Origin: a bacterium
Lineage (GTDB): Bacteria; Patescibacteriota; Minisyncoccia; Moranbacterales; UBA9337
Reading direction: 5' to 3'
Assembly (NCBI GenBank): GCA_021159185.1
Contig: JAGGSH010000007.1
Location: 1-42,162, forward strand
DNA length: 42,162 bases
Positions 4,770 to 39,670 of this stretch are shown piece by piece (within the stretch, counting starts at the first letter, position 1; each line of letters begins with the position of its first letter). The notes under the pieces were generated by a model. The model was not told the origin of the DNA, searched no databases, and saw only the letters and a list, made by a program, of their open reading frames with translations. A program made the position numbers and the translations under genes.

Positions 4770-4778
4770 TAAAATCTT

Positions 4779-5257
4779 CCTCCCCTCTTTGAGGGGAGGT
4801 GTCCCGCTTGGCGGGACGGAGGGGTGTATGAGGCAGTGACTATGAGAAAATTCTCAAACTTAAAAAGAGAAAAACCTTTAAGAAAAAAACTAAGAAATTC
4901 AGCCACGCCCCAAGAAATAATCCTTTGGTCAAGACTAAGAAGAAACCAATTAGAATACAAATTCAGAAGACAACATTCCATAGGGAAATATATTGTAGAT
5001 TTCTATTGCCCGGAAAAGAATCTGATTATAGAACTGGACGGTTGGCAGCATAGAGAAGAAAAACAAGAAAGATACGATAAAGAAAGAACTAAATTTATGG
5101 AAAGCTTAGGTTTTAAAATACTAAGATTCTGGAATAATGATATTAATAATAATCTAGAGGGAGTTATTCTTAAGATTGAAGAATATTTGTGAAGTTGGCG
5201 ATATTACGCACCCCCTCTCCGCCAAAGGCGGATCTCCCCCTCAAAGAGGGGGAGAGG
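4779..5257. mobile_element. Repeat-bounded unit carrying a DUF559 endonuclease gene
   Basis: The left end (4779-4826) is a 48-base block: an inner palindrome CCTCCCCTCTTTGAGGGGAGG-type, a small GTCCCGC/GCGGGAC hairpin, then GGAGGGGTG. The right end (5209-5257) is the rough reverse complement: CACCCCCTCT, a small CCGCC/GGCGG hairpin, then CTCCCCCTCAAAGAGG-type palindrome and GGGAGAGG. The left block recurs base-for-base at 5876-5923. The only gene between the ends is the DUF559 CDS. The organisation is that of a small transposon-like unit with terminal inverted repeats; mobility is inferred, not shown. Confidence 0.6.
4842..5192 (+). CDS. DUF559 / Vsr-like PD-(D/E)XK endonuclease domain protein
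   Basis: A 116-residue protein with the DUF559 pattern: basic N-terminus, ATPQE-I-I-L-W-x-x-L-R, then Y-K-F-R-R-Q-H-S-I-G-x-Y-I-V-D-F-Y-C, the catalytic-type strand L-I-I-E-L-D-G-W-Q-H, and G-F-x-I-L-R-F-W-N-N-D-I. The D of VDF and the E-x-D of ELDG fit a PD-(D/E)XK/Vsr-like nuclease core. The GTG at 4824 lies inside the left terminal repeat, so the ATG at 4842 (MRKFSN) is preferred. The family is annotated as an endonuclease of unknown biological role. Here it is enclosed by terminal repeats that also occur without the gene, so it may be what moves or maintains those repeats (inference). Confidence 0.85.
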   Translation: MRKFSNLKREKPLRKKLRNSATPQEIILWSRLRRNQLEYKFRRQHSIGKYIVDFYCPEKNLIIELDGWQHREEKQERYDKERTKFMESLGFKILRFWNNDINNNLEGVILKIEEYL

Positions 5258-5848: not shown

Positions 5849-5875
5849 TTCGCGAATGATAAATAAAAAAAACCT

Positions 5876-6017
5876 CCTCCCCTCTTTGAGGGGAGGTGTC
5901 CCGCTTGGCGGGACGGAGGGGTGCGCATAAAGCAGTGGCAAGAAAGACAAGGAAAATAATTGTAAGGTCGGAAGCGTTTTACACCCCCTCTCAATCTCCC
6001 CCTCAAAGAGGGGGAGA
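5876..6017. repeat. Gene-less copy of the DUF559-type terminal repeats (MITE-like)
   Basis: The left block 5876-5923 is identical over 48 bases to 4779-4826. The right block 5982-6017 matches the right end of the DUF559 unit (CACCCCCTCT ... CTCCCCCTCAAAGAGG-type palindrome) but lacks its small inner hairpin. Only about 58 bases lie between the ends. It fits a non-autonomous derivative of the 4779-5257 unit and fills the frr-rseP gap. Confidence 0.75.
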
Positions 6018-7256: not shown

Positions 7257-7324
7257 TGTCATTCCCGCATTCTCCCATGTCATTCCCGCCTTCGCGGGAA
7301 TGACAAAAAGGGGTCGGGAATGAC
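7257..7324. repeat. TCATTCCCG...CGGGAATGA palindromic repeat
   Basis: Two TGTCATTCCCGC starts and an inner CCCGCC-TTCG-CGGG hairpin end in GGGAATGACA. It lies between rseP and proS and belongs to the dispersed TCATTCC/GGAATGA family found in at least seven other gaps of this window. Confidence 0.75.
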
Positions 7325-10017: not shown

Positions 10018-10061
10018 TTAAAAAATTATAAGAGCCGCGCGTTTAATCCGATTAAAAATTA

Positions 10062-10097
10062 TATACCACTAGGTTGCGACCGCGCCGTAATGGTATA
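10062..10097 (+). repeat. 36-nt palindromic repeat R1 (TATACC...GGTATA family)
   Basis: 36 bases with arms TATACC and GGTATA and core TTGCGACCGC. It belongs with R4 and R5 in a subfamily sharing ACC-R-CTA and CGTAAYGG. It lies 44 bases before R2 in the murA to PaaX-like gap. Confidence 0.85.
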
Positions 10098-10141
10098 TAG
10101 ATTTAAGAAGATAGAACAAGACCAAAAACAAATTAAAAAAA

Positions 10142-10177
10142 TATACCATTATTTTGCGGTCGCAACAAAATGGTATA
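10142..10177 (-). repeat. 36-nt palindromic repeat R2, overlapping the promoter of the PaaX/Cas2-like gene
   Basis: Same length and arms as R1, but the core reads GCGGTCGC on this strand, so it is in the opposite orientation to R3. It matches the reverse complement of R3 (10765-10800) at about 33 of 36 positions. Its right end supplies the first bases of the TATAAT box (10176-10181) of the following gene, so a protein bound here would block that promoter. Confidence 0.85.
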
Positions 10178-10181
10178 TAAT
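10176..10181 (+). promoter_or_regulatory. -10 box of the PaaX/Cas2-like gene, partly inside R2
   Basis: TATAAT at 10176-10181 ends 6 bases before the ATG at 10188. This predicts a leaderless or near-leaderless transcript. The first two bases of the box are the last two of palindrome R2. Confidence 0.55.
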
Positions 10182-10742: not shown

Positions 10743-10764
10743 TAGAGAAAATGAAAAAATTGAT

Positions 10765-10800
10765 TATACCATTTTATTGCGACCGCAACAAAATGGTATA
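10765..10800 (+). repeat. 36-nt palindromic repeat R3, downstream of the PaaX/Cas2-like gene
   Basis: Near-perfect palindrome with arms TATACCATTTT and AAAATGGTATA around TTGCGACCGCAA. It begins 22 bases after the stop codon and forms an inverted pair with R2. Confidence 0.85.
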
Positions 10801-10853
10801 TAAGTGAAGTTTTAAATTGTAAATAAAAACGGGAAATAATTTGATTATCTAAT

Positions 10854-24286: not shown

Positions 24287-24400
24287 CCTCCTTCCCTCTT
24301 TGAAGGGAGGATTGAGGAGGGGTGCGTAAATTAGAAAAGCTAGCGGTATTACACACCCCCTCTGTCCTACGGACATCTCCCCCTCAAAAAGGGGGAGAGG
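24287..24400. repeat. Gene-less copy of the DUF559-type terminal repeats
   Basis: The left block (24287-24324) is CCTCCTTCCCTCTTTGAAGG-like and ends GGAGGGGTG. The right block (24354-24400) is CACCCCCTCT, a GTCC-TAC-GGAC hairpin, CTCCCCCTCAAAAAGG-like and GGGAGAGG. About 29 bases separate them. The right block matches the segment inside comEC (37970-38016) at about 45 of 47 bases. Confidence 0.75.
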
Positions 24401-24438
24401 AAAAAAGAACAACATTCTAAAATTTAGCATTTAAAATT

Positions 24439-28457: not shown

Positions 28458-28749
28458 GTGATTGTCTGACTACTTTAAATTGTAAAAATCCAGAGTAAAA
28501 TTGCTAGCTTAAAAGAATACTCTGGATTTCAAACCTAGATTCCCAACCGAGTTGGGAATGACATAGAGAAATTTGGGAATAACATAAAAAATAGATACCA
28601 CTAGATTGCGACCGCACCGTAACGGTATATAAATTTTTTTGTTAAATTTTATAAAATTATTTTCATTTATCATTTCAGAGTTTTTTTGGAGCGCTCGCCT
28701 TTGGCAGGCCTGTCTGCCTTTGGCAGGAAGTTGAGAATGGCACATTAAA
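28458..28749. repeat. Repeat-filled gap between convergent ftsZ and kinase-like genes
   Basis: No gene is seen. It contains ACTCTGGATTTC ... GATTCCCAACC-GAG-TTGGGAATGACA (28525-28565), the 36-nt repeat R4, and a TTTGGCAGGCCTGTCTGCC-type palindrome near 28700-28728. All belong to families seen elsewhere in the window. Confidence 0.7.
28594..28629 (+). repeat. 36-nt palindromic repeat R4 (solo)
   Basis: GATACCACTAG ... TTGCGACCGCA ... CGGTATA. It differs from R1 mainly in the first base and the right arm. It lies between the 3' ends of two convergent genes, so it cannot be an operator of either start. Confidence 0.82.
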
Positions 28750-30570: not shown

Positions 30571-30701
30571 CTCCCCCTTTAGAAAAGGGGGGTTAGGGGG
30601 GGGATTTGAAAGTTATCATTATTTTGAATGCTTTCTTTTTTCTCACGCTTTTCAAATCCCCCTACTCGCTACGCTTACTTCCCCCTTTTCCAAAGGGGGA
30701 G
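30571..30701. repeat. CTCCCCCTTT/AAAGGGGGAG inverted repeat unit between nrdR and nrdD
   Basis: Left: CTCCCCCTTT-AG-AAAAGGGGGG then TTAGGGGG and GGGATTTGAAA. Right: TTTCAAATCCCCCT, a TCGCTACGC stretch, then TTCCCCCTTTTCCAAAGGGGGA-like palindrome. The architecture is the same as the DUF559-type units but the sequence differs, so it is a sister family. No gene is inside. Confidence 0.7.
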
Positions 30702-37540: not shown

Positions 37541-37631
37541 AAACTTTATTAAAAACTTCACCAAATTTAGCACTTATAAGCGATAGCATATAAGTGCTAA
37601 AAAGGAGAAAGAGGCGCAGATTTAATTGAAT

Positions 37632-37640
37632 TGCTATAAT
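37632..37640 (+). promoter_or_regulatory. Extended -10 (TGCTATAAT) of comEC, probable leaderless promoter
   Basis: TGC then TATAAT (37635-37640), followed by 6 bases and the ATG at 37647. The layout is identical to the rnhB promoter. Confidence 0.65.
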
Positions 37641-37646
37641 CAACTT

Positions 37647-39227
37647 ATGACCAAATCCAAAATTTTTTTAATTTTATCATTAAGTTTTACGGCGGGAGTT
37701 TTCGCGAGATCGTTTTTTGATATTGGTTTAACTCTGATTTATTTTTCACTGGTCCTAATAATAATATTTTTTGTTCTGGGATATAAAAACAAAATCGCTT
37801 GGGTTGCTATCTTGGCGGTTTTATTTTTTATCGTGGGAATTTGGCGGACCGAGATTGATTTAAAAAAGCTGGAAGATTTAAATCTTGGCGAAAAAAATAT
37901 TTCCGCGGAAGTGGCGGTGATCAAAGAGCCGGAGCAGAAAGAAAAATATCAGAAGCTGATTGTAGAATTCACCCCCTCTGTCCTCCGGACATCTCCCCCT
38001 CAAAGAGGGGGAGAGGAAAAAGTAGAGATTTCCTCTCCGCCCGAGGCGGATTCTCCTCTTTTAACAAAGGGAGAGGACTTAAGATTATTAATTAACGCTG
38101 ATCCTTATTTGGAAATAAATTATGGTGATAAATTAAAAATAGACTGTTCTTTGGAAATTCCGGAAAACTTTTCCGATGATTTTGATTACAGAATGTATTT
38201 AGCCAAGGACAAAATTTATTATCTCTGCCGCAATGCTCAAATTGAAAAAATGGAAAGCGGTGAGGCCGGCAAGCCCGGCACTTTTTTATCTAAAAAAGTG
38301 CCGGGTAAACTCTATGGCGCTATTTTGAAAACAAAAAATAAAATGGAGGAAAAAATAAACCAGGTTATTCCCCAGCCTCAGGCGGCGCTGGCTGATGGAT
38401 TATTATTCGGAGGAAGCAGCCGGCTTTCTAAAGAGGTGAACGATAATTTTTCCAAAACCGGAATGACCCATATTGTGGCGGTTTCCGGATATAATGTTTC
38501 CATTATAGCGGAATACTTGATTTTGGCGGGAATATTTTTAGGGTTTTGGCGGAAGCAGGCTTTTTGGTTCGCGTTGGCGGGAATAATTATTTTTGTGGTT
38601 ATGATCGGGCTTCCCGCTTCAGCGGCGCGGGCGGGAGTAATGGGGACGCTTCTTATCTGGGCGATGAAAAACGGACGATTGGCTAATTCTCAAAACGCCA
38701 TTATTTTTGCCGGAGCGGTAATGCTAATAATAAATCCTTTGATTTTGCGCTGGGATATTGGATTTCAATTATCCTTTATGGCGACATTGGGAATTATAAT
38801 GTTGGCTCCTTTTTGGGAAAAATATTTTATTAAAAAACACAAAGTGTTGGGACTGGCGGAGATATTATTTTTAACGGTCAGCGCGCAAATATTCGTCTTG
38901 CCGATTATTTTGCATAATTTTCATAATTTGTCATTTGTTTCCATTCCGGCTAATCTTTTAATTTTAACCATTGTTCCCATAACTATGCTGTTGGTTTTTC
39001 TAACGGCAGTCAGCGGATTTATTTTTTATCCCTTGTCGCTGGCATTTGCCTGGCTGGCCTATCTTCCGCTAAAATATGAAATAGAAATCGTGAACGCGCT
39101 GGCAAATCTAAGTTGGGCGAATAAAGAAGTAGAAAATTTCGGGTGGCGGCAGGCGGTGGTTTGGTATTTGGTTTTGTTTCTAATAATTTTTTTCTTAAAA
39201 GAAAAACGGAGATTGAAAGAGAAATAA
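37647..39227 (+). CDS. comEC: ComEC/Rec2 competence channel protein (membrane part only), with repeat-derived insertion
   Basis: 526 residues from the ATG at 37647; the in-frame TTG at 37626 lies upstream of the predicted transcription start. N-terminal hydrophobic segments and an OB-like DUF4131 region are followed by the competence domain: G-L-L-F-G-G-S-S, M-T-H-I-V-A-V-S-G-Y-N-V-S-I-I, and A-S-A-A-R-A-G-V-M. About ten membrane helices. The C-terminal metallo-beta-lactamase domain of full-length ComEC is missing here and is encoded by the gene at 39671. Residues ~108-144 (TPSVLRTSPPQRGGEE ... SPPEADSPLLTKGED) are encoded by two palindromic repeats of the DUF559-associated family. It conducts single-stranded DNA across the membrane during uptake. 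Confidence 0.92.
   Translation: MTKSKIFLILSLSFTAGVFARSFFDIGLTLIYFSLVLIIIFFVLGYKNKIAWVAILAVLFFIVGIWRTEIDLKKLEDLNLGEKNISAEVAVIKEPEQKEKYQKLIVEFTPSVLRTSPPQRGGEEKVEISSPPEADSPLLTKGEDLRLLINADPYLEINYGDKLKIDCSLEIPENFSDDFDYRMYLAKDKIYYLCRNAQIEKMESGEAGKPGTFLSKKVPGKLYGAILKTKNKMEEKINQVIPQPQAALADGLLFGGSSRLSKEVNDNFSKTGMTHIVAVSGYNVSIIAEYLILAGIFLGFWRKQAFWFALAGIIIFVVMIGLPASAARAGVMGTLLIWAMKNGRLANSQNAIIFAGAVMLIINPLILRWDIGFQLSFMATLGIIMLAPFWEKYFIKKHKVLGLAEILFLTVSAQIFVLPIILHNFHNLSFVSIPANLLILTIVPITMLLVFLTAVSGFIFYPLSLAFAWLAYLPLKYEIEIVNALANLSWANKEVENFGWRQAVVWYLVLFLIIFFLKEKRRLKEK
37970..38076 (+). repeat. Two DUF559-type terminal repeats inserted in frame in comEC
   Basis: The first (37970-38016) matches the right end of the intergenic unit at 24354-24400 at about 45 of 47 bases. 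The second (38030-38076) is CCTCTCCGCC-CGA-GGCGGATTCTCC... GGGAGAGG, closest in layout to 5209-5257. Both are read through without stops and add about 36 residues. Confidence 0.85.
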
Positions 39228-39299: not shown

Positions 39300-39592
39300 T
39301 GTAAGAAACCCTGGCGTTGTTTGCATTTTCTCTTTTATGCCATTCCGTCCCGCTTAGCGGGAGGAGAGAAACGGAAAAATTTATCCGGAATCTACGCATA
39401 TAAAATGAGGAAGAGATTCCCGATCCCTGCCTGGCGGCAGACAGGGATAAAATCGCTGGCTTAAAAAATTACTCTGGATTCCCGCTTTCGCGGGAATGAC
39501 ACTTCGACGGTTTCGTTCTGGATTCCAGGCATTTTTTCTTCCACTCTCCGCCAAAGGCGGACAAGCGTTACAGAAAAAATTCTGGAATGACA
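39300..39592. repeat. Composite repeat, copy 1 (TGTAAGAA...GGAATGACA)
   Basis: It begins TGTAAGAAACCCTGGCGTTG and ends AAAAATTCTGGAATGACA. It contains a CCCGC-TTA-GCGGG hairpin, a CCTGCC-TGGC-GGCAG palindrome, CCCGC-TTTC-GCGGG, and a CCGCC-AAA-GGCGG hairpin. Copy 2 (41908-42135) shares both ends and the TTCCAGGCATTTTTTCTTCC segment but carries different inner palindromes. Confidence 0.8.
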
Positions 39593-39604
39593 CAAAAAAA
39601 TTTA

Positions 39605-39640
39605 TATACCGCTATGGTGCGACCGCAACGTAACGGTATA
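39605..39640 (+). repeat. 36-nt palindromic repeat R5 upstream of the MBL gene
   Basis: TATACCGCTATGG ... GCGACCGCAACG ... TAACGGTATA, in the R1/R4 subfamily. It ends 30 bases before the ATG of the metallo-beta-lactamase gene and continues into TATAAA, a possible -10. Confidence 0.82.
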
Positions 39641-39670
39641 TAAATTCAGTGCTTGCTAATTATTATACTT

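Follow-up and report, generated by a model that had tools for sequence, protein, structure and literature searches.

DUF559 nuclease genes lie between inverted, triplex-capable ends in distant bacteria and are a likely partner of orphan triplex repeats

In the excerpts of Holder et al. (2015, PMC4666352), the bacterial intrastrand triplex motif (TM or TMECO, earlier PIT elements) is described as a hairpin combined with a purine third strand. Its repeats in E. coli are intergenic, polymorphic and arranged in inverted pairs of two types. The E. coli motif forms a triplex in vitro, triplex formation in vivo could not be demonstrated by these authors, and they found no mobility gene close to the motif. 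In REP/REPIN-RAYT systems (REPtrons), according to excerpts of PMC3116915 and PMC3733652, inverted palindromic repeats enclose a nuclease gene, doublets of two types that lack the gene are dispersed in the genome, and the repeats sometimes lie inside genes. MITEs and autonomous insertion sequences likewise form gene-less and gene-bearing units with common ends. Rickettsia palindromic elements and intragenic REPs are read in frame inside genes, and for the CGTC repeats, which include RPE-4 and RPE-6, the excerpt of PMC3733652 reports no transposase.

We analysed a stretch of 42,162 nt (the window), which is one contig (C6) of a 0.94-Mb genome that is 96% complete. It holds the sole DUF559 gene of that genome, a forward-strand ORF of 116 aa (4842–5192) upstream of the ribosome recycling factor gene. 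In a profile search, this ORF matched PF04480 (DUF559) with E=1.2e-36 and 125.3 bits against a cut-off of 20.6. The DUF559 and MTES_1575 nuclease models were its only matches, and the unit contains no DDE or other transposase. As the preliminary description had reported, the gene is enclosed by two ends, 4779–4826 (forward strand) and 5209–5257 (reverse strand), which are inverted relative to each other. In the left end, a perfect pyrimidine/purine hairpin, CCTCCCCTC-TTT-GAGGGGAGG, is combined with another, small one and with a purine strand, GGAGGGGTG, that mirrors the purine arm of the first hairpin except that T replaces one A. The right end has the same architecture, inverted, and belongs to a second type; the two types are 74% complementary over 42 nt, being related and of different sequence. 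Exact matches to the hairpin cores number 2 and 3 in the window and 0 in 100 shuffles. Judged by sequence, these ends are the intrastrand triplex motif or lineage variants of it: in each, the pyrimidine/purine hairpin precedes a purine strand that mirrors the purine arm, and, like the repeats of Holder et al. (PMC4666352, excerpts), they form inverted two-type pairs. However, the excerpts report no link of those repeats to a mobility gene, whereas the motif here is tied to DUF559 genes.

Gene-less copies of these ends are present in the same window. A 49-nt stretch is identical between 4778–4826 and 5875–5923, and the copy sits in a 141-nt gene-less pair (5876–6016) with its left end at 5876–5923 (forward strand) and its right end at 5982–6016 (reverse strand). 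A second gene-less pair, at 24287–24402, has left and right types matching those of the gene-bearing unit, and a pair of a sister family, with arms CCCCCTTT/AAAGGGGG, lies at 30571–30701. The units at 4779, 5876 and 24287 all show two distinct end types in constant left/right order. The identical recurrence of the left end, the gene-less pairs and the sister family had been noted in the preliminary description, and all of them were borne out. It had overlooked the ends inside a comEC-like gene and those on another contig (C24) of this genome. The former are a solo right-type end at 37971–38013 (reverse strand), read in frame, and a second, degenerate solo end ~20 nt beyond it (~38033–38078, reverse strand); within the comEC-like ORF (37626–39227) the two in-frame right-type triplex ends (37971–38078) contribute ~35 residues. 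On C24, two triplex ends ~590 nt apart (L009:920–975 and 1500–1540) lie in or near an opposite-strand gene that is tRNA-synthetase-like by eye.

The DUF559 protein is predicted to have a Vsr-like PD-(D/E)XK fold. Its AlphaFold model (mean pLDDT 89.8, pTM 0.82) is closest to 3hrl from Neisseria gonorrhoeae and then to 3r3p, the catalytic domain of the homing endonuclease I-Bth0305I, with Vsr further down. The sequence profiles agree with this structural ranking: 3r3p is matched with E=2.8e-5 by sequence (E=3.6e-5 with Foldseek), and the Vsr mismatch endonuclease model TIGR00632 scores 19.5 bits, below its cut-off of 97.85. We observed that D53, E64, D66, Q69 and H70 are kept across 72 homologues, in an alignment of the window's protein with 71 of the 73 stop-free proteins from the 80 loci described below (L116 and L117 were left out). 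The preliminary description had likewise called DUF559 Vsr/PD-(D/E)XK-like, and membership of YcjD in PD-(D/E)XK is an old assignment (PMC1189080, excerpt). The accompanying statement that DUF559 has no defined role needs correction, since a role is proposed for the Caulobacter DUF559 protein VsrA, which an excerpt of PMC12907096 links to a solitary cytosine methyltransferase and the DNA damage response. A search of the open-access literature found no work tying DUF559 or Vsr-like nucleases to inverted repeats, MITEs or mobility, the papers that mention DUF559 being judged for mobility by title or the opening of the abstract.

PF04480 was found in 37 of 93 relatives. In a scan of species genomes, one peptide pattern, drawn from a Patescibacteria-weighted alignment, gave at least 572 confirmed matches; the best 80 of these, the named loci, come, judging by record titles, from Patescibacteria, Chloroflexota, Cyanobacteriota, Pseudomonadota, Omnitrophota and other groups. 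Ends were detected as a hairpin plus a mirrored third strand, and 78 of the 80 named loci and 29 of 30 relatives had enough flank. An upstream end facing the gene was observed at 66 of 78 named loci (from the best 80 of at least 572) and 25 of 29 relatives, compared with 9 of 244 other ORFs. Both ends were present at 47 of these 78 named loci and 22 of 29 relatives, and at 0 of 244 other ORFs. We then assigned the nearest ends without overlap at 110 DUF559 loci, a set that includes the window. Judged from coordinates and flanks, L030/L066 and L020/L047 are apparently duplicate entries of a single locus each, and L116/L117 form a near-identical pair. Third strands faced the gene on both sides in 59, different two-end arrangements were seen in 21, one end in 23 and none in 7. 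Among 260 control ORFs from these loci, treated by the same procedure, two ends occurred at 0 and one end at 13; for facing pairs, 59/110 versus 0/260 corresponds to a Fisher p=4e-38 with loci treated as independent. The reversed sequence of the 80 named loci (best 80 of at least 572) yielded 3 ends in total. These data support the conclusion that the DUF559 gene and the triplex ends belong together. The preliminary description had let the link stand or fall with other genomes, where it survived; it had also suggested CCTCCCC/GGGGAGG ends in other phyla, and here the triplex architecture is general and those letters are not universal.

End sequences vary widely among loci, and the third strand still follows the hairpin of its own end. 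Over 82 ends, the mean best identity of the third strand with the mirror of its own arm was 0.729, compared with 0.664 (sd 0.009) for shuffled partners. With 52 asymmetric arms, the mirror was better than the direct repeat in 25, the direct repeat was better in 3, and 24 were ties. Solo ends in the 4-kb flanks resemble the gene ends of their own locus at 11 of 13 loci (28 of 30 far ends were scored, and one locus had no near end).

Some DUF559 genes are on plasmids. On viral contigs, where 12 of 43 loci were examined, the facing layout was observed in 4, plus 1 as an inner pair. In cyanobacterial and Deinococcus plasmid units it is the hairpins, not the third strands, that face the gene, and from those of Synechocystis it follows that end pairs exist in both orientations. 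The unit on Deinococcus proteolyticus plasmid pDEIPR03 (L268) lies between two genes, and outside its triplex ends it has extended inverted repeats around GCCAGCGTTGCTG. In Chloroflexi bacterium CFX11 (L269; G099:C1:962500–980500), a stretch of ~14 kb has at least 17 DUF559 pieces in alternation with small ORFs; by eye, toxin-antitoxin- or nucleotidyltransferase-like genes are among these ORFs, and the cluster resembles a cassette array. The E. coli DUF559 gene is ycjD (MG1655 1,351,407–1,351,760), and a degenerate end lies at the 3' terminus of this gene; motif copy no. 9 is at 1,351,204–1,351,239 (PMC4666352, excerpts).

Next, we counted the motif in 175 Acinetobacter genomes, using a pattern with a near-zero reversed control. 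At least 3 motifs were present in 77 of 103 genomes with DUF559 (E<=1e-11) and in 17 of 72 without it (p=1.6e-11, shared ancestry ignored); 10 of the 103 had no motif by the pattern used. Gene-less copies are dispersed through these genomes. At several Acinetobacter loci (L206, L214, L220, L228) the gene-adjacent end often has a divergent second end ~80 nt away, and these divergent ends form mosaic clusters resembling REP BIMEs.

The best evidence for mobility comes from units inside methyltransferase genes of Synechocystis, compared with their Planktothrix and Pseudanabaena homologues. In plasmid unnamed3 of Synechocystis sp. B12, a DUF1156 DNA methyltransferase gene is interrupted by a 504-nt DUF559 unit. 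The Planktothrix homologue is continuous, aligning to residue 190 and again from residue 220 with 67–91% identity, and has a 29-residue unrelated linker where Synechocystis B12 has the unit; because these 29 residues are of other sequence, the empty site is not base-exact. In pAQ6, the corresponding linker carries several in-frame copies of such repeats. Plasmid unnamed7 of strain B12 has a 446-nt DUF559 unit in another methyltransferase gene, and at the same site in the Pseudanabaena homologue lies a gene-less unit of 95 nt that has both ends and is read in frame; gene-bearing and gene-less units can occupy one homologous site. The Pseudanabaena homologue has another gene-less unit, of 98 nt, where Synechocystis has none. 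A search with the two Synechocystis B12 plasmid loci for a near-identical plasmid without the unit found none.

Pairs in E. coli also vary. At hrpB-mrcB, fepB-entC, alx-sstT and lldD-trmL the size differs among strains and the alleles are not clean insertions, the variation in the records listed being mostly collapse to one hairpin, or loss; the ygfF-gcvP pair is lost along with ygfF in the short records listed (40, 40, 40, 30 and 30 records listed of ~5,380 each). In E. coli BL21, a short palindrome replaces the middle of the lldD-trmL triplex pair in the alignment (L276); we take this palindrome to resemble the inside end of IS50. No clean target-site duplication was found at the first four pair loci or in the cyanobacterial genes, the best candidate being a 3-nt TAA at fepB-entC, and no clean excision or empty site was found in the E. 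coli and Acinetobacter loci. The best Acinetobacter candidate (G193) is not empty and keeps a collapsed hairpin remnant, and when the flanks of the Acinetobacter DUF559 loci were clustered, the matches were one-sided and did not yield a clear number of insertion sites. From the Synechocystis, Pseudanabaena and Planktothrix sites and the pair variation in E. coli and Acinetobacter, gain and loss of units are visible; the mechanism is not. The earlier picture of a transposon-like unit with MITE-like derivatives holds for the gene–end link, the gene-less copies and the shared sites, whereas the target-site duplications and clean empty sites that it called for did not turn up in the E. coli, Acinetobacter and cyanobacterial genes.

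Based on these observations, we consider it probable that the units form a mobile system resembling REP/RAYT and driven by a Vsr-like PD-(D/E)XK nuclease. The minimal element of ~450–500 nt would consist of one DUF559 gene between two inverted ends, each of which could form, on one strand, a hairpin along which the third strand lies. The nuclease might recognise the ends in single-stranded or extruded form, for example behind a replication fork, and cut at or near them, which would lead to movement or copying of its own unit. It may also act in trans on gene-less pairs with matching ends, and collapse of pairs would leave solo ends. Recognition, cutting and route of movement are what we infer. 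As the gene is found between matching folded ends in many distant bacteria, DUF559 is likely to be the missing partner of widespread orphan repeats that seem to move around genomes. A wider proposal, to which we give an even chance, is that such elements occur across many phyla with the Vsr-like nuclease in place of a transposase reading triplex-capable ends, that the orphan triplex repeats of >260 genomes are their gene-less copies, and that E. coli ycjD is a settled relative. Against the mobile-element model count the 30 of 110 DUF559 loci with one end or none, the 21 of 110 with another two-end arrangement, and the 17 of 72 Acinetobacter genomes that lack DUF559 (E<=1e-11) and still have at least 3 motifs. 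The 10 of 103 DUF559-bearing Acinetobacter genomes with no motif by the pattern used, the plasmid units whose hairpins face the gene, the negative outcome for target-site duplications and clean excision, the inexact Planktothrix empty site and the in vivo result of Holder et al. also weigh against it.

The plan of palindromic repeats on both sides of a gene, together with doublets that lack it, is already known, and the DUF559 unit works like REP-RAYT in both respects. However, the gene between the repeats is a PD-(D/E)XK and not an HUH/Y1 enzyme, no GTAG tag of the REP kind was seen by eye in the ends, and the mirrored third strand is a feature of the DUF559 units, unlike REP. In contrast to insertion sequences and MITEs, there is no DDE or other transposase, and no target-site duplication was found at the E. 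coli and cyanobacterial loci. As the enzyme class differs from both, the unit is a member of neither. The in-frame ends of the comEC-like gene and of the cyanobacterial methyltransferase genes (L282, L284) recall the Rickettsia palindromic elements, whose sequence is other than that of the triplex ends.

The proposed system provides an enzyme candidate for one of the most widespread orphan bacterial repeat families and suggests what a nuclease family whose very name stands for unknown function may do. The evidence, drawn from gene flanks, is of the type by which REP repeats were connected with RAYTs. The spread of triplex repeats and the cause of the instability of their sites become directly testable in laboratory strains of E. 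coli and Acinetobacter. Should the nuclease read folded ends, a restriction/repair nuclease fold would underlie a transposition-like process.

The strongest rival is that old triplex repeats spread by other means, while a homing-like DUF559 nuclease cuts gene-less pairs and repair copies the gene in. The second-nearest solved fold is indeed that of a homing endonuclease, I-Bth0305I, whose catalytic fold, like that of Vsr, is common with the DUF559 protein, and the site shared by Synechocystis and Pseudanabaena has the pair with and without the gene. However, the DUF559 gene has no surrounding intron; matching ends flank it instead, and gene-less copies exist. If DUF559 were purely a passenger of repeats already in place, motif numbers would not need to follow its presence, nor would solo ends need to resemble those of the local gene. 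The DUF1156 site in Planktothrix has no pair. We regard homing into existing pairs as rather unlikely, and it may belong to one process with the favoured model.

It is less probable still that nothing moves, DUF559 being a repair nuclease for hairpins or mismatches and the motifs serving its own gene as regulatory structures or as substrates. Such a housekeeping role would suit the excess of upstream ends (66/78) over both ends (47/78) among the best 80 of at least 572 loci, the methyltransferase-linked DNA damage response of Caulobacter VsrA (PMC12907096, excerpt) and the tendency of the listed E. coli pairs to collapse or be lost. It does not suit units inside coding genes and in varied contexts, gene-less copies dispersed through genomes, or DUF559 genes on plasmids and, with matching layout, on viral contigs.

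That RAYT or IS200-type HUH transposases move the ends with DUF559 as a passenger is very improbable, even if REP repeats of similar size go with RAYTs (PMC3116915, PMC3733652, excerpts). A Y1_Tnp profile search of the window's genome gave no match. In Acinetobacter, motif abundance showed no association with a Y1/HUH transposase (22/35 vs 72/140, p=0.26, shared ancestry ignored), and 37 of 50 genomes with at least 10 motifs had no Y1 match. The DUF559 link persisted in Acinetobacter genomes without Y1 transposase (60/81 vs 12/59, p=2.6e-10, shared ancestry ignored). We rejected this reading for these genomes. G+C-rich hairpins are common near small genes, and yet coincidence or ordinary transcription terminators are barely conceivable and were rejected, the former by the control ORFs (0/260 vs 59/110) and the reversed named loci, the latter by the mirrored third strand, which has no terminator role, and by the finding, cited in the excerpts of Holder et al. 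(PMC4666352), that the motif has no promoter or terminator activity.

The nuclease-run mobile system is our preferred reading of the triplex ends. An Rfam search of the window gave no match at gathering scores. Two other palindromic families were observed in the window. One, unrelated to the triplex ends, comprises 56-nt palindromic repeats (TATACCA...GCGACCGCAAC...TGGTATA), 66–79% alike, at 10045–10180, 10748–10803, 28577–28632 and 39588–39643. The other is a third dispersed family with CCCGCNTTCGCGGGAAT-like core arms, found at 7272, 23799, 33046 and 39468 and at further positions.
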